Origin: Candidatus Bathyarchaeota archaeon
GTDB lineage: Archaea > Thermoproteota > Bathyarchaeia > 40CM-2-53-6
Assembly (NCBI GenBank): GCA_005888755.1
Contig: VBBQ01000037.1
Coordinates: forward strand, 56,784 to 79,853
Reading direction: 5' to 3'
Length of the DNA stretch: 23,070 nt
The stretch's first letter is position 1. Each line of letters begins with the position of its first letter. Made by a program: the position numbers and the translations under genes. Below are positions 2,672-11,660 of this stretch, piece after piece. Below the pieces are notes generated by a model. That model had not been told where the DNA came from, did not search any database, and saw only the letters and a list, made by a program, of their open reading frames with translations.

Positions 2672-2799
2672 ACCTGCTGACGGGAGTTCGAATCTCCCCC
2701 GGGCTACCAAGGCCTTGTTCGAATATGAAAAATGGGGGGATGAAACCCTTGGGGAATCGAATTCACGTTTCTTGCAAACTGTCTTGTTTGGTCTGCGGA

Positions 2800-5700
2800 C
2801 TAGCTTGGTTTCCAGGCTAGGCCTCTGAGGCTGGTTGATGTATTGTTTGTGAGTGTAGACAACACCCCGCCCGTGTATGTCAGGCTGGAACCGCTTCCAC
2901 CTGAGATGTAGGCTGTCGTTCCAAGCCAGCTTATCGAGTACAGGTTGCTCGCGACAGGATTTGCGACACGGGTCAGCACGTTGCCATCGTAGGTGAGGAC
3001 TAGGCCGGAGTCTCCTACGAGCAGAGCAGAGGTGCCTGACGGAATCCATGAGATGGAGTGGATAACGATCGTAGAGCTGTAGAGACCGGTGGTGTTGAGG
3101 GTCTGAACGCTTGTTCCATCATAGCGCACGATGACACCGTTCCCACCTGCCACCAACGCGTACTGCCCGTTTGGACTCCAACCTGCAGAGTAGAGGTACT
3201 CCGTGGTGCCAGACGATATCTTTGTGATTTGTCCGTTCGGCTGGTAGAGCAACATGGTACCAGAGGATCCAACCATCAATGCCTGGGTCCCCGCGGGGTT
3301 CCAGCTTATCGACCGTATTGAGTTGGTGAACGGGTTTTGGAGCCTGGTCATAGAGGCTCCATCATACTTGAACAGAACACCTCCTGAGCCAGCGATCATT
3401 GCGTAAGACCCGTCCGGCTTCCAAGCCAACGCGTACAGGTTGGTAGTTACCCCTGTGGGTATCGTTGAGAGTTGAGAGCCATCGTACTTCAAAACCACGC
3501 CCGAGTCGCCCACTATTAGCGCGTAGGATCCATTAGGGTTCCAGGCCACTTGTCTGAGCGGAGTCGTCACAGGCTGAGCTATCAGGGTGAAGACACCGCG
3601 CTGATAGCTGAAAACCTTACCATCATTTGAGATGGCAAGAGCATTGGGGGCCAGCGAAGCAACCGTGACCACCTTCGACACAACGATAGTCCTGCTCGCT
3701 GAGTCTTGAGTCGTCAGTGTTACCGTGTACGACCCACCGGTTGAATAGGTGTGGGTGGCAGAGCTGCCTGTTGTCGAACCTCCATCGCCAAAAGTCCAGC
3801 TGAAACTGTAAGGCGGACTCCCTCCTGAAGCGAATGCGGTAAAGTTAGCCGGGCGACCGGCGGTAACCGGGTTAGAGGCTGTGAATGACGCTGCGAGCGA
3901 GGCGACCGTAATGGTCAGGGATATGCTCGTCGAATGGCTGACGCCATCGCTGTCTGCCGTGATTGTTACGTTCGTAGTCCCGAGAGTGGCGGTGACAGTG
4001 GCAGAAAAGGACACGGAAACGAAGCAACCCGGAGTTCCTTGTACATCCCCAAGGAATGGGCATGGATTACGTGTGAAAGAGGCGGTGACTCCACTGGGAA
4101 GGCCAGACGCTGTGAAGGTAATGAAACCATACGAAGGAGCATTCACTAACCACGCGGCTATCCAAGAGGACGGGCTGGTGCCACCCTGAGCCATGGAAAG
4201 GCTGCTAGGCGAAGGCGTGTCCAGGCTGAAGTCGAAGCCAACGGGGGGATTGGTCTGAACTGGGTAGGGCTTCATCAACGGGTAACGGTCCAGACCGAAA
4301 GGTGTGTCTCCAATACCGTCTGGGCCTGTGCACACCTCCTGCTGCGGTCCCCCGCAATTGTCTGTAGCGTTATAGTTCCACCAGAAATTGCCCCCGCTGG
4401 GGTAGCCGTCGTCCCATGAGTCATAGCTACCCTTGTAATCCATTCCTTGGTAAGCTCCTCCTGCAAAATCGCCTCCTCCGAGGAAGTTGTTGTGGTAGAC
4501 TAGCATGTTGCTTGAGATATAGAACTGAATTCCATTACCTGCGGTAATGTTATTGCCGGTAACTGTCACATGGTCAGAGTTGAAGGCTAGAACGCCGAAC
4601 CGGCTTATGTTTGACAGGGTATCATTGACGATTGTTGCTCCGTGGACGTTTGATAGAACGATCCCTTCAATCACGCCGCTGATCTGGAGGTTGCTGGCCT
4701 GAAAGTTCGTGCAGTTGACCACTATTAGTTGTCCGACAGGAATCCCGTTGATACTCGTTCCAGAGCATCCCTCGAAGTAATAGATTGGTTTGCCATTGAC
4801 CAGGTTGTCCGTTGTAATTGTATTGGAGCTGAGTTGAGCAAGGCCGTAGACCATTGTGTTGGAGGGGCAACAGTCAGCTATGGTGGGTGGATGGAGGTCG
4901 ATGCCCTGCCCGGAGAAAATATTGCCGGATATGGTGGTCTGGGTAACATTTGCGCCATCGTTAATCTCGATGCCCCTATCTGATCCAGGTCCGAACTGAT
5001 TATTCTCTATTAGCGCCCCTACCGTTGAGGCCGCTCCATAGCCCTCCAGAAATAGCCCGTAGACCCCATCTTGGACGAACTTGTTTCCAGAAACGACCAT
5101 GCCGGTGGTCCCGAAGGATTCCATTCCATTGACACATGGGGACAGTGAATTTCCAGAGACAACTATGCTGGTGGAAGAATGAATGCTCATACACGGGCCT
5201 GCAACTTGCGTTTCCCCTCCACCCCCCGATGAGATGTAGATGGGTTGAACCGAGAGATTGTTCCCTGACAATGTGACATACTTAGAGCCTTCAACGGTGA
5301 TGCCGGAGCGGCCGTCGCTTAGAGTCGAGTTCTCAACCCGACCGTTTGCAACGTTGTAAAGATAGACGTCGGCATCGTAATAGCTGAAGGTATTGATGCT
5401 GCCGCTACTGTGGACGCGGACGTTCCGGATTACGAAATTGGCGTCAGTGTTTTCCACAAAAACCCCGGAACCACCGCAACCCGCCCCTGGTTGGCAGAGG
5501 TCGATGTCCCAATTTGATATGACATAGGGGTCCGACGCTGTGCCCGACCCACTTCTAACACCATTGGCATATGTGAAGCCTGAGTTTCCATCGATAAATA
5601 TGGGAGCGTGGGAGTTGGAGGTGGCAGGCGGGCCGAGAGTAAGTACGAGCTGTGGTGGGTTGGCTCCTTCCTTCGACGAGTAGTACGCCCCGTCACCACT

Positions 5701-6141
5701 AGGCGACGAAACCCGAAGGCTGACAATTGAATCGCCGGGGACTATTGAGGTCAGGTCGACCTCGAACCATTTCCCAGTTGACACGCTTCCGAGGGACGCG
5801 ATCGTCTTCGGGCCGGCCGCTGGAGCATTATTCCACGTCACAATTCCCTCCGACCAGTTACTGGCTGTTGTGTGGAAGTCTCCTCCCCGGTCAGAAGAGT
5901 CTACCTGGAACAAGCGCAGCGTTGCGCTAGTCACCTGGCACGAGCCTACTCCCGTTACAGAGAACCTTAGGAGAAAATCTCTGACAGGGCTTGCGTCGGC
6001 GACCAGGGTCGTACCGGTTCCGAGATTGGTCGTAGGCATATCCGCCCTGATGGTCGCGTCGTCCGTGGGGCGAAAGACCAACGTCGTCGAGCAATCAGTA
6101 GCTCTCACAGAAGCAAACAAGGAGACAACTGAGAGTATCAA
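2800..6141 (-). CDS. Large secreted mosaic protein: DNRLRE, beta-helix, PKD, propeller
   Basis: The 1113-residue exported protein reads, in order: the end of a signal peptide (…ASVRA then TDC), a DNRLRE-type beta-sandwich (about 16-165), a long NosD-like right-handed beta-helix with repeated V-x-x-N/G-N turns (about 175-590) that closes with the typical DGIGDTPFGLDRYPLM, an Ig-like domain (about 640-750), a PKD domain (about 755-835, SWTFGDGG and HTYSTGGSYTVTL), and six or so ~43-residue repeats of the form 'AW.P.G..AL..G..G....YDG' that should close into a beta-propeller. No C-terminal anchor is seen. It is rich in N-x-S/T sequons. Such modules bind or cleave carbohydrate or mediate adhesion; the substrate is unknown. 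TTG 6141 is the first standard start, but the open frame upstream carries the rest of the signal peptide (see findings), so the true start is probably earlier. Confidence 0.85.
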   Translation of the reverse strand: MILSVVSLFASVRATDCSTTLVFRPTDDATIRADMPTTNLGTGTTLVADASPVRDFLLRFSVTGVGSCQVTSATLRLFQVDSSDRGGDFHTTASNWSEGIVTWNNAPAAGPKTIASLGSVSTGKWFEVDLTSIVPGDSIVSLRVSSPSGDGAYYSSKEGANPPQLVLTLGPPATSNSHAPIFIDGNSGFTYANGVRSGSGTASDPYVISNWDIDLCQPGAGCGGSGVFVENTDANFVIRNVRVHSSGSINTFSYYDADVYLYNVANGRVENSTLSDGRSGITVEGSKYVTLSGNNLSVQPIYISSGGGGETQVAGPCMSIHSSTSIVVSGNSLSPCVNGMESFGTTGMVVSGNKFVQDGVYGLFLEGYGAASTVGALIENNQFGPGSDRGIEINDGANVTQTTISGNIFSGQGIDLHPPTIADCCPSNTMVYGLAQLSSNTITTDNLVNGKPIYYFEGCSGTSINGIPVGQLIVVNCTNFQASNLQISGVIEGIVLSNVHGATIVNDTLSNISRFGVLAFNSDHVTVTGNNITAGNGIQFYISSNMLVYHNNFLGGGDFAGGAYQGMDYKGSYDSWDDGYPSGGNFWWNYNATDNCGGPQQEVCTGPDGIGDTPFGLDRYPLMKPYPVQTNPPVGFDFSLDTPSPSSLSMAQGGTSPSSWIAAWLVNAPSYGFITFTASGLPSGVTASFTRNPCPFLGDVQGTPGCFVSVSFSATVTATLGTTNVTITADSDGVSHSTSISLTITVASLAASFTASNPVTAGRPANFTAFASGGSPPYSFSWTFGDGGSTTGSSATHTYSTGGSYTVTLTTQDSASRTIVVSKVVTVASLAPNALAISNDGKVFSYQRGVFTLIAQPVTTPLRQVAWNPNGSYALIVGDSGVVLKYDGSQLSTIPTGVTTNLYALAWKPDGSYAMIAGSGGVLFKYDGASMTRLQNPFTNSIRSISWNPAGTQALMVGSSGTMLLYQPNGQITKISSGTTEYLYSAGWSPNGQYALVAGGNGVIVRYDGTSVQTLNTTGLYSSTIVIHSISWIPSGTSALLVGDSGLVLTYDGNVLTRVANPVASNLYSISWLGTTAYISGGSGSSLTYTGGVLSTLTNNTSTSLRGLAWKPS

Positions 6142-6234
6142 TAGACAGGCTACTAGCAGAGCTGACGGCTTCAGAGGTAAGAGATACTGGTGAATATGAA
6201 TACTTCCTACGACAAATGGGTAGAGAAATTATCA

Positions 6235-6246
6235 TGAATAAAAAGT
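6235..6246 (-). promoter_or_regulatory. Possible TATA element of the large mosaic protein gene
   Basis: On the minus strand AACTTTTTATTC is an AT-rich TATA-like stretch about 60-70 nt upstream of the CTG at 6174, where the intact signal peptide would begin. Weak match; it is the best candidate between 6142 and 6300. Confidence 0.25.
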
Positions 6247-6462
6247 TACCTCGAGAGAGTATCCGTTGATATCCAAAGATAACCAGGCCCAGCCCCCGCC
6301 CTTATAAAACCTCAGCCAATGAGCTGCTCCCTCAAAGTGATTGAAAATAAGACCAGAATTTTCAATGTTCGCGGCACGAACCCTGGGCCGTGATGGGTAG
6401 TCCCCCTAGAAGGCTCCAAACATGTTGTGGAAAGCGAGGGTTGACTCTTCTATCGAGTTTAG

Positions 6463-6537
6463 AAAAGAAAAAGGGGGAGTTTCGAAATCCGTGGTATAAA
6501 GTCAGTGGCCAGCCACGCATGTCCCCCGGGCTACCAC
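6463..6537 (-). repeat. Composite repeat B: tRNA-Gln 3'-end copy plus GGCCAGCCA unit
   Basis: The plus strand carries GGCCAGCCAC (6507-6516), 5 nt, then TCCCCCGGGCTACCAC (6522-6537). The latter repeats the last 15 nt of the tRNA-Gln gene. The same 10+5+16 arrangement recurs at 10982-11012. To the left is GGTATAAAGTC (6493-6503), found again inverted at 9232-9242, and then an A-rich tract that reads as T-rich (6472-6463) on the minus strand. GTGGTA (6491-6496) and TACCAC (6532-6537) form a 6-bp inverted repeat round the unit. There is no matching 5' acceptor strand, so this is not a tRNA gene. Confidence 0.8.
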
Positions 6538-6811
6538 AGTCCGGCCTCGAATATACCCGATCCCACGGTAATTCCGAGGTGTGCGGCCAAGAATCTTGTC
6601 ACCTAGTACTGGCACTGGAAGGAATCTCCTACCCGAGCCTAGCCGAGACCCAGTCGACCATTCACCATTAGATATTGAAGACCAGAAGCTGGCTGTGAAA
6701 TGGAATCATTCTCGATCCTTGGAAGATTCGCAGAGAAACTTGAGGACCCGAGGCTAACAGCCAAACTCTCGCTCGTCGACATATCGGCCCGTGTAATATT
6801 TTGCCGGGATT

Positions 6812-8119
6812 CTATGTCGATACTATTTCGATGCTCTCCGGACCATCTGTCGGACCGGACGGTTTTCTAGCTCGTCTTAACCCATTGAAAGCGACCAGTA
6901 ACGCCAACCCGCCTGTGAACACGGCCGTGTAGAGGATCCATGATGGCACCGGAATCGGATTCATGGAGGCTGTTCCCTTGCCCAGATACGCCACGTATGT
7001 AGGATCGTGCAGTATTGCTGTCCCGGACCAAGTAGGATAGTTCATCCTGTAGAGAAACTTGGTCGCAGTGTAGTTGATGTTCGAGGTTGAAGGAAGTCCC
7101 GCGATATCCGGAAGCTCGCCCCTCACAAAGTCTTGGACTCTGAGGAGTGGATCGAAGAATTGGCCTTGCAAGGCGTTCGTAGGAATTGAACCGACAGGTG
7201 AAGCAAGGTACACTGCTGGGTGCGTCGTTGGAGAACTTGTCTGTAGCGTGTAGTTGTCTTTGAACTGAAACTCGTAAGCGAGGATGTTGTCCACATTGAC
7301 CTGTGCAGCAGTGAAAGTCGACGCAACGGGACTCGATTGAGAATCATAGGGCGATCCACCCGTGACAATGGTCAACTGTCTAGATGCGACAGTTGATGTT
7401 GCGTAAAGCAATGAGAGGCTCAGGTCTTGTAGGCTGGGAGTCGGTGGTGTGAAAGAGGACAGCGTTATGCCGCCGATCTGAAAACTTGTCTTCAGAAATG
7501 TCCTGTTCCCTTTGATTGAGTAGTCATAGAACATAGACACGTGATCGACAAGCGCGTTCGCCGCGCTTGCTCCGCCTCCATAACCGTATCCTGGTGGCGT
7601 TGCCTTGATGAGAAAGGCCTGGATCGAGCCGTACGTGACACCCCATTGATAATGTGGAACTCCATCGACGATCGTCTTGTTCACGGCGTCAGTCGTGAAG
7701 GTTTGGGATGCGTTCATTATCAGAGTGTACTTGAGTTCGGTCGTAGGGATACTGTAGTCAGCGTCAAGGTAGCCATTGTGGTTCGTATCGTTATACACCT
7801 CTATAGCCAGCAATGAGTTCCCCACAAAGACCCTCTGGCCTGTGGGTGAATTGTACGCTTGCCCGACGAAGGTAAAGATCGGGTTCTGGTTCAGAAAATG
7901 TAACGCGAAGAATACCGTGCGAGTATTGTTGACGTTAACCCAAGAGTACCACAATCTCAGGTTCCCCCCACCATAGTATGGCACCTGGAGGTCTCCGCTT
8001 GCATACTCCTGCGATATCGGAATCGTTGACGACTGTGCCCGAACAGAAAAGGGCAACTGGAAGAACGCCGCAGAAAACACGATCGCTGCGAGAAACACAG
8101 CCAAGAATATTCGTTTCAA
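6812..8119 (-). CDS. Surface protein anchored by a C-terminal TM helix
   Basis: The 435-residue protein starts at TTG (residues MKRIFLAVFL) with a clear signal peptide, predicted cut after A28 (SVRA, then QSS). A beta-rich ectodomain with several N-x-S/T sequons follows, then one transmembrane helix at about 394-412 (WILYTAVFTGGLALLVAFN) with Arg/Lys after it. It should therefore be an extracellular protein tethered to the membrane with a ~20-residue cytoplasmic tail. Residues about 110-122 (NDTNHNGYLDADY) look like a Ca-binding DxNxNG loop. I do not recognise the family. The start is supported by GGGGA 7-10 nt upstream and a TATA box near 8160. The gene directly upstream encodes a membrane-bound wHTH regulator on the same strand. 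Confidence 0.85.
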   Translation of the reverse strand: MKRIFLAVFLAAIVFSAAFFQLPFSVRAQSSTIPISQEYASGDLQVPYYGGGNLRLWYSWVNVNNTRTVFFALHFLNQNPIFTFVGQAYNSPTGQRVFVGNSLLAIEVYNDTNHNGYLDADYSIPTTELKYTLIMNASQTFTTDAVNKTIVDGVPHYQWGVTYGSIQAFLIKATPPGYGYGGGASAANALVDHVSMFYDYSIKGNRTFLKTSFQIGGITLSSFTPPTPSLQDLSLSLLYATSTVASRQLTIVTGGSPYDSQSSPVASTFTAAQVNVDNILAYEFQFKDNYTLQTSSPTTHPAVYLASPVGSIPTNALQGQFFDPLLRVQDFVRGELPDIAGLPSTSNINYTATKFLYRMNYPTWSGTAILHDPTYVAYLGKGTASMNPIPVPSWILYTAVFTGGLALLVAFNGLRRARKPSGPTDGPESIEIVST

Positions 8120-8150
8120 CTACATCGTCCCCAGAATATTATTGCTCTTT

Positions 8151-8175
8151 CTTCGATATAGTTCGATGCTGTCGA
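8151..8175 (-). promoter_or_regulatory. Promoter of the anchored surface protein with TCGA repeats
   Basis: On the minus strand TCGAACTATATCGA holds the TATA box (about 8157-8162), roughly 40 nt before the TTG start. TCGA tetramers start at 8153, 8163 and 8172, close to one helical turn apart. TCGAACTATA recurs exactly at the promoter of the adjacent regulator. Confidence 0.55.
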
Positions 8176-8212
8176 AATATTGTTGAAAAGTCTTGAACAA
8201 TGAATCCTCATT

Positions 8213-8677
8213 TCAATCCCCTGAGAACCTTGGCTTGTCCTTCCAATCACGGCAGGACTCGAACCAGAACACGCCGGCGGACACCGTGTTTAGCAGTAGC
8301 GCGATGATCGTGAAGGGAGAAGAAAGAAAATCTCTCAGCAGACTGAGATAAAGGATCGAGGCAATCGTCATCACTATCGCGTAGAAAACGTGGCGTGGCA
8401 CGAAGATGTTTCTAATAAGAACATAGTTTCGCACGAGACCGACCCGGACCCGTGTCTTGACCCGATAGTTCCCTATCGGATCCTTCGAGATCAATCCAGC
8501 AGACTCAAGCTTCTGCAAGTGAAACAGTGCCGAGCTTGGACTTGCGAAGCCCATCGCGTGCTGAACCTCGCGGAGCCGGACCTCGTCTCCAGCGTGGGAC
8601 TGTATGTAAACGTAGATGAGCATCGCGGTCTCTGAGAGCTTCAAGCCAGCCCTTTCTCGAACTAGTGACTCGATCAC
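8213..8677 (-). CDS. Membrane-tethered winged-helix transcription regulator
   Basis: Residues about 12-75 form a winged HTH of the archaeal MarR/ArsR-like kind: LSETAMLIYVYIQSH, then VRLREVQHAMGFASPSSALF and HLQKLESAGLISKD, ending in a basic wing. Two hydrophobic helices follow (about 96-114 and 120-140). The DNA-binding domain thus sits in the cytoplasm on a two-helix membrane hairpin with a 14-residue charged tail. GTG 8677 is the only usual start in the frame and lies about 27 nt from a TATA box, so the message is nearly leaderless. The gene ends 93 nt before the surface-protein gene on the same strand. Its promoter shares sequence with that gene's promoter, so autoregulation plus control of the neighbour is likely (inference). 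Confidence 0.82.
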   Translation of the reverse strand: MIESLVRERAGLKLSETAMLIYVYIQSHAGDEVRLREVQHAMGFASPSSALFHLQKLESAGLISKDPIGNYRVKTRVRVGLVRNYVLIRNIFVPRHVFYAIVMTIASILYLSLLRDFLSSPFTIIALLLNTVSAGVFWFESCRDWKDKPRFSGD

Positions 8678-8703
8678 ACGGTGGTATGATAGCTGATCGG
8701 TCG

Positions 8704-8745
8704 CTTATAGTTCGACACCATAGAACCCCCATTCGATAGACTCGA
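8704..8745 (-). promoter_or_regulatory. Promoter of the membrane-bound regulator with TCGA repeats
   Basis: Minus-strand TCGAACTATAAG holds the TATA box (8710-8704), spaced for initiation just before GTG 8677. TCGA tetramers start at 8712, 8733 and 8742; the last two have the same 9-nt spacing as 8163/8172 in the neighbour's promoter. On the plus strand CTTATAG is also TATA-like and could serve the divergent small gene. Confidence 0.5.
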
Positions 8746-8806
8746 AATCGCGTCTGACGAAAACAATCCAAGGGCGAAGCGTGACGATGACGACACGCGC
8801 CAGATT

Positions 8807-9133
8807 GTGAAAGACGCTCTGTATGGCCATCAGGGAAAACCCTGCGGCCAAGTCCATCCTGGCATGAGCGACGACGACTTTGCAGACCGGAGAGAAGCCG
8901 AAGAAGAGGAAGAGAAGCGCATCGCGGGAACGAAACTTCTAGGCCCCACTCCCGAAGTTCAGATCCTGGGGCCGGACTCGGCAAGGGCAAGTGTCAACAC
9001 GATACCAATCGAAGACCTACGGAAGACATTAGACACGGCCGAAACGCTGCGACAGCTCACCGTCGGCAGAGTCCGATCTGAGATTACAGCACGATGGAAG
9101 AAGACGCCCAAATCCAAAGGTCAGGTCCCTTAG
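8807..9133 (+). CDS. Small acidic protein of unknown function
   Basis: The 108-residue frame begins at GTG 8807 and is divergent from the wHTH regulator. It is very polar, with an acidic run EAEEEEEKR near residue 32 and an amphipathic C-terminal half (IEDLRKTLDTAETLRQLTVG) that could form a helix or coiled coil, then a basic tail. The frame is open for 32 more codons upstream, to 8711, and those codons read just as protein-like (acidic, DDDDTRQIV) but contain no ATG, GTG or TTG. The true start may therefore be an unusual codon, or a start may have been lost. I do not recognise a family. The competing minus-strand frame is Arg/Ser/Pro-rich and looks like a shadow. Confidence 0.45.
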   Translation: MKDALYGHQGKPCGQVHPGMSDDDFADRREAEEEEEKRIAGTKLLGPTPEVQILGPDSARASVNTIPIEDLRKTLDTAETLRQLTVGRVRSEITARWKKTPKSKGQVP

Positions 9134-9196
9134 CCATGTCGGGTTTGCCCGGTCCGGCCCATTTTCCCTGGTTCAATTGGTATTTTCGAATTCTAC

Positions 9197-9262
9197 TTCG
9201 AATCTCCCCCCGGCTACCATTGGCTGGCCGCGACTTTATACCGATTGCATTATGTCCTTTTT
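9197..9262 (+). repeat. Composite repeat C: 23-nt tRNA-Gln 3'-end copy plus inverted unit
   Basis: Positions 9197-9219 match the last 23 nt of the tRNA-Gln gene (T-loop TTCGAAT to CCA, 2687-2709) with one substitution (G2701 to C9211). Directly after come TTGGCTGGCC and GACTTTATACC (9220-9242), the reverse complement of the GGTATAAAGTC…GGCCAGCCA block of repeat B, then a T5 tract (9258-9262). Here the tRNA end and the second unit are on the same strand; in copies B and D they are on opposite strands. Confidence 0.85.
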
Positions 9263-9499
9263 CACAGCGTCCTTCAGGGCAGCTGTTATCAGTAGCGTGT
9301 TGTGCTCGTTCCCTTTAATCGGTGAGGCATAGGTCCTTTGGGGATATGCTTGGGCCTCGGTCGTAGGAATGCGGTCCGGGTCTAGTCCCCAGGCTCTGGC
9401 GACTTGTTTGAGCATCCCGATTTTGGAAATCTGAGTCTTAGGTCTCATGCCGAGTCTGCTAGCTGTGTAGATGCCTCGGAGGAATTCTGGTCTTTTCAT
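9236..9499 (-). CDS. Small conserved-looking protein, unknown function
   Basis: The 87-residue frame starts at ATG (MKRPEFLRGIYTASRLG) and is basic and helical: a first helix about 1-15, a second at SKIGMLKQVARAWGLDPDRI, and a C-terminal helix LLITAALKDAVKKDIM. The balanced composition and ATG start suggest a real gene. No catalytic motif or metal site is visible. Its stop codon lies inside composite repeat C, so the repeat forms its 3' end. It is possibly a fragment of a larger protein; I cannot name it. Confidence 0.5.
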   Translation of the reverse strand: MKRPEFLRGIYTASRLGMRPKTQISKIGMLKQVARAWGLDPDRIPTTEAQAYPQRTYASPIKGNEHNTLLITAALKDAVKKDIMQSV

Positions 9500-9725
9500 C
9501 TGGATGTCATGGCATGTGTCGACATCTTTACCGCTCGGAAAATGTTTTAAGCAACATACTATGCCAATCGTAAGATTTAGTATCCTTCACGGTGTTATCT
9601 GATAACAGTAAGAGTTCTAGAAGAACTCATCAATTGAAGTGCGCATGTGACTTCACAAGATTGCTGGTAGTTGGTACCAAGAAACAGGGGGGTTTAGATC
9701 TTCTAAGTTCGGAATCGGGCAGGGG

Positions 9726-10637
9726 TTAGCTGACGGTTACCTGTATTGTCACGGAGTGAGATATCGTTCCGCTTGATCCCGTTACTGTTACAGTGTACGC
9801 TCTAATTGGCGTAGAATGAAGCGCTGAGACTGTCAACGATGAAGTCCCAACCGTATTGCTAGCGCTGAGCGTGACACTTGTGGGGTTCAGCGTAGCCGAT
9901 GGGCCATGTTTTATGACAGGAGAGACGACGGCCAAAAGACTTACGGACCCAGTGAACCCGCCCGTGCCGGTTACCAAGATGGTAACAGATCCGGAGGATC
10001 CTCTCTTGAGCGACAGCGATGATGAGCTCGCAGTCAAGATGAAGCCTGCTGCAGTCGTAAATGTAGCTCCTTGAACTGTTTCAGGGTCGACCGTCCCCGC
10101 GTTTACAACCTGAACGCATGTAGTGGTACCTGCCACACTGCTATTGCTGCAACCAGAGGGATACGCGATTGGAGTGTCCGTCGTTGATCCAACAATATTG
10201 TATCTAATGCTGAACAGTAGCCCAGTTGTAGGGCTGGGCGTCATGAACCCCAACACGACCTGGACAAGCCGGGCCACCCCGGTAGAGGTGTTTGTGGAGT
10301 TCATTTGTGTAAAGGTAATTTGACCTGCGAAGACATTCCCGGCTGAGCTTATGCTAACTGGACTGAGTACCTGGGGATCAGCCTGAACACTTATGTCGAA
10401 ACCGTTTAAGGAATCCGAGCCTTGGATAACAACGTTCACTACTATTTGATTGCCCACAGATCCGCCGAAGGTTGGCGCAGACGATGGGCAGGAAGTCGTG
10501 ATTGCAGAGAGGCAGACTATTCCTGTGAATTGAGCGTGTGCGGATCGAGGCATAGCTGGCAGGAAGCTCAGCGATGCGATCACTAGTCCAAAGAGTACTA
10601 CGCTGACGGAGAGTTTCTTTCTATTTGATCGCTCCAA
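9726..10637 (-). CDS. Secreted cohesin-like plus Ig-like protein
   Basis: The 303-residue protein has a signal peptide with a basic start (MERSNRKKLS), a hydrophobic core and a predicted cut after A35 (SAHA, then QF). Residues about 38-190 resemble a cohesin/CBM2-like beta-sandwich (VGNQIVVNVVIQGSDSLNGF with a following 'fdisv..dp.vl' strand), ending with 'vVNAGTVDPE'. Residues about 200-303 form an Ig-like domain (FTGSVSLLAVVSP, then TPIRAYTVTVTGSSG), the same type as in the 1113-residue neighbour. No anchor is seen, so it is probably released or held by other surface proteins. TTG 10637 is the start: a CTTATATG box at 10676-10669 places the transcription start within about 10 nt of it. Confidence 0.83.
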   Translation of the reverse strand: MERSNRKKLSVSVVLFGLVIASLSFLPAMPRSAHAQFTGIVCLSAITTSCPSSAPTFGGSVGNQIVVNVVIQGSDSLNGFDISVQADPQVLSPVSISSAGNVFAGQITFTQMNSTNTSTGVARLVQVVLGFMTPSPTTGLLFSIRYNIVGSTTDTPIAYPSGCSNSSVAGTTTCVQVVNAGTVDPETVQGATFTTAAGFILTASSSSLSLKRGSSGSVTILVTGTGGFTGSVSLLAVVSPVIKHGPSATLNPTSVTLSASNTVGTSSLTVSALHSTPIRAYTVTVTGSSGTISHSVTIQVTVS

Positions 10638-10668
10638 GATATTTTCTGGCTCTGGTGCGGGGGTTGGG

Positions 10669-10676
10669 CATATAAG
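10669..10676 (-). promoter_or_regulatory. TATA box of the cohesin-like gene
   Basis: Minus-strand CTTATATG, a strong archaeal TATA box, centred about 35 nt before the TTG start. It predicts an almost leaderless transcript and so decides the start codon. Confidence 0.6.
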
Positions 10677-11054
10677 TTATTCTATTTGATTGGTAATGGA
10701 AGTCGCCTGTAGATAGCCGTGTATCGTGCCGGCAATCGAGGGTTGCTGACAACTTCCTCTCGAAAATGCCTCTAGGAAAAGAAGGGGTAGCAGCCGTCCT
10801 GGCCCACTAGGCTATCCTGTTGAATCCAGGCGGATTCGAACCCCGAGGATCATAGTTCTTCAAGTGGGAGTCAACATGGGGCGAGTCATTTAGCAATTTT
10901 TCTTCCTACCTTACTTTTAGTCCATCAGTACTTGAAGGAATTTGGAAAAAAAAGGGTCGTATACAAAGCGGTGAATTCCGCGGCCAGCCACTGGTCTCCC
11001 CCGGGCTACCACGAGGGATCGGATAAGTCGCATCGTTTCCGGTCAAGCCGAGAT
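10677..11054. other. Intergenic region with a T-arm-like scrap and repeat D
   Basis: Near 10826-10842 the minus strand reads GGGGTTCGAATCC, which looks like a tRNA T arm, but the flanking stem bases mismatch and no acceptor partner exists. Composite repeat D fills 10946-11012. No open frame in the gap is convincing. Confidence 0.45.
10946..11012 (-). repeat. Composite repeat D: tRNA-Gln 3'-end copy plus GGCCAGCCA unit
   Basis: The plus strand has GGCCAGCCAC (10982-10991), 5 nt, then TCCCCCGGGCTACCAC (10997-11012). Positions 10995-11011 (TCTCCCCCGGGCTACCA) match the tRNA-Gln 3' end exactly over 17 nt. To the left are GCGG-N6-CCGC (a hairpin), GTATACAAAG, and eight A's (10946-10953) that read as a T8 tract on the minus strand, 43-109 nt past the rhomboid stop codon. 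Same organisation as repeat B. Confidence 0.8.
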
Positions 11055-11660
11055 TTAGAAGTTTTTCAGCTCGGAGCTCCAGAACCTTCGAAGAAGGAGC
11101 CCGGTGATCAGGCCTCCGATGTGTGCGAAGAAACCTCCGCCGGCGAAGAGGTCCAAACCAGCGATGAATATAATCAGTATGACACCTCGTGGTCCTGTTG
11201 CAGCCCCCATGATGCCATAGACCGCCCCTGAGGCGCCTACTCCACAGCTCCATGTTAAGGGGTTCATGTTAGGGACACCGGTGAGAAAGAAGCCTGTTAG
11301 ATCCGCTCCAACAAAGGTTAGGTTGCCTGCAACGCCTGTGAGAAAAAACGTTGCAACCCAACGAGTCTTAGTGACCTGTTCCTCCAGGATAAACCCGAAT
11401 ATCAACAGAAATAGAACATTACTAGAGATGTGAATGATACCTGCGTGCAGAAAGATAGACGTAACCAGCGTCCAAGGATAGATGGGCAGAGGGCCATCAC
11501 ATTGCACCAGCGCCAAAGGAAGGAGAGGGTTGACAAGATCCCCTCCAAGTACTGCAATAGCCATGTAGACAGCGATGAGTACGAGGGAGAAGACAAGCGT
11601 CGGAGAAGTCAGGTATGGGTTTGACGATCTCTCCCCCGACTCCTGAAAGTCTTCTTGCAC
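11055..11660 (-). CDS. Rhomboid family intramembrane serine protease
   Basis: This 201-residue protein has six hydrophobic helices and the rhomboid catalytic pair: Ser144 in GASGAVYG (helix 4) and His180 in AHIGGLITG (helix 6). The HISSN motif (77-81) in helix 2 supplies the conserved His and Asn near the active site. Rhomboids cleave substrates within or just outside the membrane and release their ectodomains. The basic six-helix form is complete. GTG 11660 is fixed as the start because an in-frame TGA lies just upstream and a TATA box sits about 26 nt before it (leaderless). A substrate among the nearby C-terminally anchored surface proteins is possible but unproven. Confidence 0.92.
   Translation of the reverse strand: MQEDFQESGERSSNPYLTSPTLVFSLVLIAVYMAIAVLGGDLVNPLLPLALVQCDGPLPIYPWTLVTSIFLHAGIIHISSNVLFLLIFGFILEEQVTKTRWVATFFLTGVAGNLTFVGADLTGFFLTGVPNMNPLTWSCGVGASGAVYGIMGAATGPRGVILIIFIAGLDLFAGGGFFAHIGGLITGLLLRRFWSSELKNF

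Follow-up and report, generated by a model that had tools for sequence, protein, structure and literature searches.

A probable tandem array of integrase-less, att-bounded cassettes with mostly exported cargo at a tRNA-Gln gene of a soil bathyarchaeon

Why would the last nucleotides of a tRNA gene reappear, again and again, between genes for exported proteins? The question is raised by a stretch of 23,070 nucleotides (the window) from a soil Candidatus Bathyarchaeota genome of 2.01 Mb (GCA_005888755.1, contig VBBQ01000037.1, positions 56,784 to 79,853; the genome is called G000 here), in which a tRNA-Gln(CUG) gene is followed by three copies of its own 3' end. An initial annotation of the window had proposed that surface-protein cassettes were inserted successively at this one tRNA, with a tyrosine recombinase encoded at 201-809 as the possible engine. 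Comparison of the window loci with congeners and other genomes of the family (G001 and so on) supports the first idea and speaks against the second. Very probably, three elements integrated in turn at the tRNA-Gln(CUG) 3' end and left tandemly accreted, integrase-less cassettes which are bounded by attachment (att) sites and carry mostly exported cargo. As far as sequence comparison can establish it, insertion was precise, modules turned over between sister species, inverted arms recur beside the att cores, integrase remnants adjoin these cores, and one cassette is common, core to core, to two genera.

The target gene lies at 2568-2709 on the forward strand. In the unspliced window no tRNA is reported by ARAGORN, nor by Rfam at its gathering cut-offs, because two introns (~2598-2636 and ~2646-2672) interrupt the gene; with the exons 2568-2597, 2637-2645 and 2673-2709 spliced, ARAGORN reads a tRNA-Gln(ctg). 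The copies of its 3' end are where they had been annotated, at 6522-6536 (15/15), 9197-9219 (22/23) and 10995-11011 (17/17), all on the forward strand like the tRNA and all lacking a 5' acceptor partner. Could they be there by chance? Five sites in the window lie within three mismatches of CTCCCCCGGGCTACCA, against 0.09 expected, and none of 100 shuffles reached five; the fifth site, antisense, marks the acceptor-pairing stretch at the 5' end of the tRNA. Genome-wide, the 16-mer has eight sites with at most two mismatches (one for a reversed-pattern control), namely four in this array, one at tRNA-Gln(UUG) on C14, two orphans on C10 and one at another tRNA; copies are not spread beside unrelated genes without presence or absence of the bracketed DNA. 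When 16 other tRNA genes of G000 were inspected up to 15 kb downstream as a control, two had one copy of their 3' end (one mismatch) and none had two or more, so smaller insertions may exist elsewhere. Those single copies (L201 969 on G000:C27 and L205 1474 on G000:C3) lie ~0.9-1.4 kb 3' of their tRNA genes. The copies of the tRNA-Gln end are att cores, all on the forward strand: the tRNA end itself (2694-2709) is the left border of the array, 6521-6536 and 9204-9219 (15/16 each) are internal sites, and 10996-11011 (exact) is the right border.

Is the DNA between these borders really inserted? At seven congener loci (G001, G006, G007, G010, G013:C24, G015 and G017) the site is empty: the tRNA end, ...GGGCTACCA, is followed directly by CG... 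and a rhomboid gene. The same rhomboid flank comes after the last core in G000 (10996) and in the sister species G014 (L044 14951), hence the stretch from the tRNA to the last core is inserted DNA with an exact border. Relatives without the repeats do not keep the gene order of G000 at this place. G014 is very close to G000 (97.5% protein identity for the rhomboid protein and 99% for TFB), and its tRNA-Gln(CUG) carries four modules, G000 having three, with different cargo. Insertions or arms are also found at this site in G005, in G004 and on one G013 contig, and at the other tRNA-Gln(UUG) in many congeners. The G013 bin holds two contigs (L049 and L050) whose tRNA-Gln(CUG) genes differ slightly; an element arm is inserted at one of them and the other site is empty, which reflects either a mixed bin or real strain variation.

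What do the ends of the inserted elements look like? Arms of three types recur beside the cores, inverted relative to each other. A type I arm consists of GGTATAAAGTC, the palindrome GTGGCCAGCCAC, 4 nt and the core, continuing on the other side as core-TTGGCTGGCCGC-GACTTTATACC; type II runs from the core to TCGAATATACC, and type III from the core over CTAGAAA to CGGTAT. The right end of cassette 1 (6480-6520, forward strand), with its palindrome GTGGCCAGCCAC, is a type I arm. A 12-nt palindrome (4+4+4) tends to lie next to the core in each arm; its sequence changes from arm to arm but its complementarity persists: 150 of 252 pair cells are paired, against 81 in shuffled arms (standard deviation 6.5, maximum 104 of 2000) and 56-85 in slid ones, which is an upper estimate because the pair positions were picked visually and the arms share ancestry. 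The two ends of one cassette are more alike than random pairings (p=0.0004). Searched for away from tRNA-Gln, the outer part of the type I arm turned up at two already known sites only; the arm is thus no genome-wide repeat. A tyrosine recombinase binds its attP at inverted sites that face each other across the crossover, and the arms are laid out as expected for such an attP. The arms also account for a counterpoint raised in the initial annotation, that the copies vary in length. The variation is real; as an objection it does not hold, since the element arms differ immediately outside the common core.

Do the cassettes move as units? Cassette 1 (2710-6520, 3.8 kb) is matched in G018, a genome of a different genus in the same family, at 94.4% over 2266 nt and 93.6% over 1429 nt. 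The two G018 pieces are contig ends ~115 nt of cassette apart, and they reach the core on both sides. On the contig that holds the larger piece, TFB is 75% identical and the neighbouring genes 65-75%, so the cassette moved between the genera as a unit. No integrase gene is recognised in this transferred form; integrase-less cassettes therefore did move. A further relative of cassette 1, 89% identical, sits at tRNA-Gln(UUG) in G001. In G018 (L047 2265-2477, L048 1445) the cassette 1 relative lies opposite to the tRNA orientation and two opposed cores are ~200 bp apart, an inversion inside the array. And where does cargo come from? The cassette 3 gene has a relative (85% at the nucleotide level) in G010 at an ordinary chromosomal locus without a tRNA-Gln core (L173 7345-8522). 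The orthologous G000 locus (C16:48700-52922) lacks the gene, its spacer being ~117 nt vs ~1.36 kb in G010, and this spacer holds no clear leftover of the gene and no clear att-like sequence. Capture of a chromosomal gene into cassette 3 from that locus is possible and unproven, as is its direction.

Which enzyme could have acted on these sites? No integrase is recognised in modules 1 and 2, and module 3 has a C-terminal remnant only. Cassette 3 starts with this tyrosine integrase tail of ~100 amino acids (9236-9544, reverse strand), which reaches the core and has no upstream part; the DTYHDI of its relatives reads DTCHDI here, and the tyrosine of that motif is, judged by position, likely the nucleophile. 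In G005 and G014, too, a similar tail lies next to tRNA-Gln. Other tRNA genes also have relatives ending beside them: longer ones in G005, G010 and G017, and a short tail in G007. An intact relative adjoins the tRNA-Gln 3' end in the IMG/VR contig 3300022223_000281, which encodes a large terminase and is a tailed provirus at tRNA-Gln. Intact relatives are encoded, for example, by the viral contig L096 and by G002:C114. Might the gene be split by integration, as in the Sulfolobus spindle-shaped virus (SSV) type? Only the C-terminal piece is found beside the core and no N-terminal part is recognised; that the whole gene of the longer relatives ends at the tRNA would speak against the split type. 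The viral integrase relatives L231-L237 are mostly without a readable tRNA-Gln site, and L238 contains the 16-mer with no integrase in view. One of these viral contigs, L231 (IMGVR_UViG_3300035099_000682), encodes an integrase 73% identical to that of L096 and has a core-like CTCTCCCGGGCTACCA beside the integrase end, in the opposite orientation.

Given these borders, what do the cassettes carry? Cassette 1 encodes a large exported protein (2800-6141, reverse strand) with CBM96, beta-helix/NosD, PKD and propeller-like repeats by Pfam. Cassette 2 (6537-9203, 2.7 kb), with type II arms at both ends, encodes an exported protein of 435 amino acids with a signal peptide (6812-8119, reverse strand), for which no Pfam family scores above cut-off, and a winged-helix-like regulator with C-terminal hydrophobic segments (8213-8677, reverse strand; Pfam LexA_DNA_bind at cut-off). 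In five genomes, homologues of the cassette 2 protein lie away from tRNA-Gln cores, so not every relative sits in a cassette. Cassette 3 (9220-10995, 1.8 kb) has a type I arm on the left and the matching palindrome on the right, forming an inverted repeat; besides the integrase tail it encodes an exported protein of 303 amino acids with a signal peptide (9726-10637, reverse strand). Across the genus and G018, cassettes range from 0.36 to 10 kb and mostly hold one exported protein each, of the kinds NosD/beta-helix, CBM96, PKD with phosphoesterase, RHS repeats, matrixin-like with HINT, and unknowns. A simple and crude signal-peptide rule predicts export, from a signal-like N-terminus, for 9 of 16 largest cassette open reading frames (ORFs) and for 11 of 97 ORFs in the flanks (Fisher p=1.6e-4). 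Cassette 1 and its relative in G001 escape the rule; their frames, too, start hydrophobic, and have no standard start codon at the right place. More distant modules (L064, L076 and L077) carry other gene kinds. No cargo ORF of the three modules has a Pfam match to a capsid or terminase (PHROGs was run on some proteins only). G000 holds a second cassette, at C10:48526-51416 (L055), with NosD-like cargo and type III arms at one or both ends. Its borders are the two orphan tRNA-Gln cores, and no tRNA gene is seen between them or just upstream.

Outside the array, the right chromosomal flank (11012-11660) holds the rhomboid-family gene (11055-11660, reverse strand), identified by Pfam and synteny. 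The closest named relatives of its product, at 77-97% identity, are from soil metagenome-assembled genomes (MAGs) called Candidatus Bathyarchaeota or Crenarchaeota. The segment 2010-12590, comprising the tRNA, the array and the rhomboid gene, is inverted in G000 and G014 compared with the other congeners, and the sides of the adenylyltransferase and TFB flanks are exchanged. Inverted recombination at a hot spot is possibly behind this swap.

How would such an array have grown? Each integration would rebuild the tRNA and leave a core copy at the far end, so that a later element could go in either at the tRNA or at one of the internal cores. The enzyme would be a tyrosine integrase of the type that is intact in Bathyarchaeia elements and in the tailed provirus. 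The cassettes would have lost their own integrase and been moved by integrases acting in trans, or in cis by being carried along with an autonomous element (accretion); probably they are recombined by integrases from other elements. The exported-protein genes may have been kept as useful at the cell surface. By inference, the cassettes would still be mobile and excise at present, the integrase would bind their arms and the host would benefit. Several points weigh against this account. All compared data are MAG assemblies, no excised circle was seen, and no intact tRNA-Gln-specific integrase was found in 21 family genomes. Some cassettes (window cassette 1, L056) have arms that show partial decay or mix the types, and both the upper-estimate nature of the pairing figure and the crudeness of the signal rule belong on the same side.

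Could the array instead be a set of pure relics, independent proviruses or plasmids that integrated in tandem at tRNA-Gln, had their own genes deleted and became fixed, with no further cassette mobility? The truncated integrase remnants, with the DTYHDI tyrosine replaced here, fit that idea, as do the lack of an intact tRNA-Gln integrase in the family genomes and the tiny size of some modules (359 and 792 bp). It is nonetheless somewhat unlikely, as cassette 1 is common to two genera core to core at 94% without a recognised integrase and also has a relative at the other tRNA-Gln. The terminal inverted repeats that stand beside the direct repeat in some modules might recall a transposon and its target-site duplications, or segmental duplications of the tRNA end. 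Against such an origin, which we regard as very improbable, insertion is always at a tRNA-Gln 3' end, whose sequence is also that of the repeat; no transposase is recognised among the cassette proteins, integrase tails lie beside cores and the arms are not copied from the tRNA.

Two further readings are less probable still. Lying 1.8 kb upstream of the tRNA, the recombinase at 201-809 was a candidate to drive the array, a role that we now think it has hardly any likelihood of playing. Across seven congener loci its identity is 86-97%, whether the neighbouring site is empty or occupied; it falls outside the repeats and is not among the matches of the array integrase family. It is therefore a conserved neighbour and not the engine, and was rejected as a part of the array. 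The other reading takes the copies as RNA-level elements, for example 3' pieces of split or trans-spliced tRNA genes. Two copies do come shortly after a TATA-like sequence (GGTATAAAGTC and GTATACAAAGC), and the lineage has tRNA introns, but the tRNA-Gln gene is complete without the copies, the copies come and go with inserted DNA, and the TATA-like sequence is part of the inverted arm and recurs on the opposite strand across a core, which leaves this as the least probable explanation of all.

How new is an array of accreted cassettes at a tRNA? Tycheposons of Prochlorococcus are tRNA-anchored elements with tyrosine recombinases and niche cargo; they are bacterial and generally larger. Integrons string together promoter-poor or single-gene cassettes, which a tyrosine recombinase moves by acting in trans on palindromic sites. 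Here, unlike in integrons, the array is anchored at a tRNA gene, and each site consists of two arms with a tRNA-derived core between them; no integron integrase with attI/attC is found in the window, whose only recombinase gene is the conserved neighbour. Closer in layout are the cis-mobilizable elements (CIMEs), whose tandem accretion is known from streptococcal integrative and conjugative elements and integrative and mobilizable elements (PMC5704250, citing Pavlovic 2004 and Bellanger 2011). Like CIMEs, the array is made of att-bounded islands that have no genes for recombination and stand one behind the other at the 3' end of a single target gene; its cores and empty sites reveal flanking by attL/attR or internal att of one site, and integration and transfer genes are lost. 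In contrast to CIMEs it is archaeal and very small, holds mostly one exported-protein gene per cassette and has several inverted-arm types, and no conjugative relative was seen.

The ssrA islands of Dehalococcoides target the transfer-messenger RNA (tmRNA) gene and carry reductive dehalogenase cargo, 16 of 31 having a six-gene integration module whose recombinase, DsiB, is related to the Ccr recombinases of the staphylococcal cassette chromosome SCCmec and is not a tyrosine integrase (PMC3146451). They share with the array many downstream copies of an RNA-gene 3' end, strain-specific tandem islands, one dominant cargo class and the absence of an integration module from about half of them; they differ in being bacterial and in target, recombinase and cargo. 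Integrated elements of Thaumarchaeota and other archaea likewise target tRNA 3' ends; their att repeats are short (median 17 bp in Thaumarchaeota), and both integration in tandem and loss of the integrase are reported, though they are mainly proviruses, conjugative or cryptic elements (PMC6563490, PMC8371274). Searches of the open-access literature turned up no archaeal tRNA-Gln array of small exported-protein cassettes that lack an integrase and have variable palindromic arms. Tandem accretion is known; what appears to be new is its variant in small archaeal cassettes of this kind.

Could there be a dedicated system behind them? A bolder version, which we hold to be rather doubtful, is an integron-like archaeal system in which host exported-protein genes would be captured between palindromic arms, kept in integrase-less arrays at tRNA-Gln genes and reshuffled, inside a genus as well as between genera, by integrases that proviruses deliver in trans, allowing fast exchange of surface proteins. 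The accretion of integrase-less cassettes at tRNA-Gln accounts for the exchange of exported proteins between species and genera in an uncultured soil archaeal lineage, and the exact borders, a 16-nt core plus arms, allow other genomes to be searched for such cassettes. Should recombination in trans be confirmed, these would be the archaeal equivalent of cassette systems like integrons and CIMEs, and their link to head-tailed proviruses could be tested.

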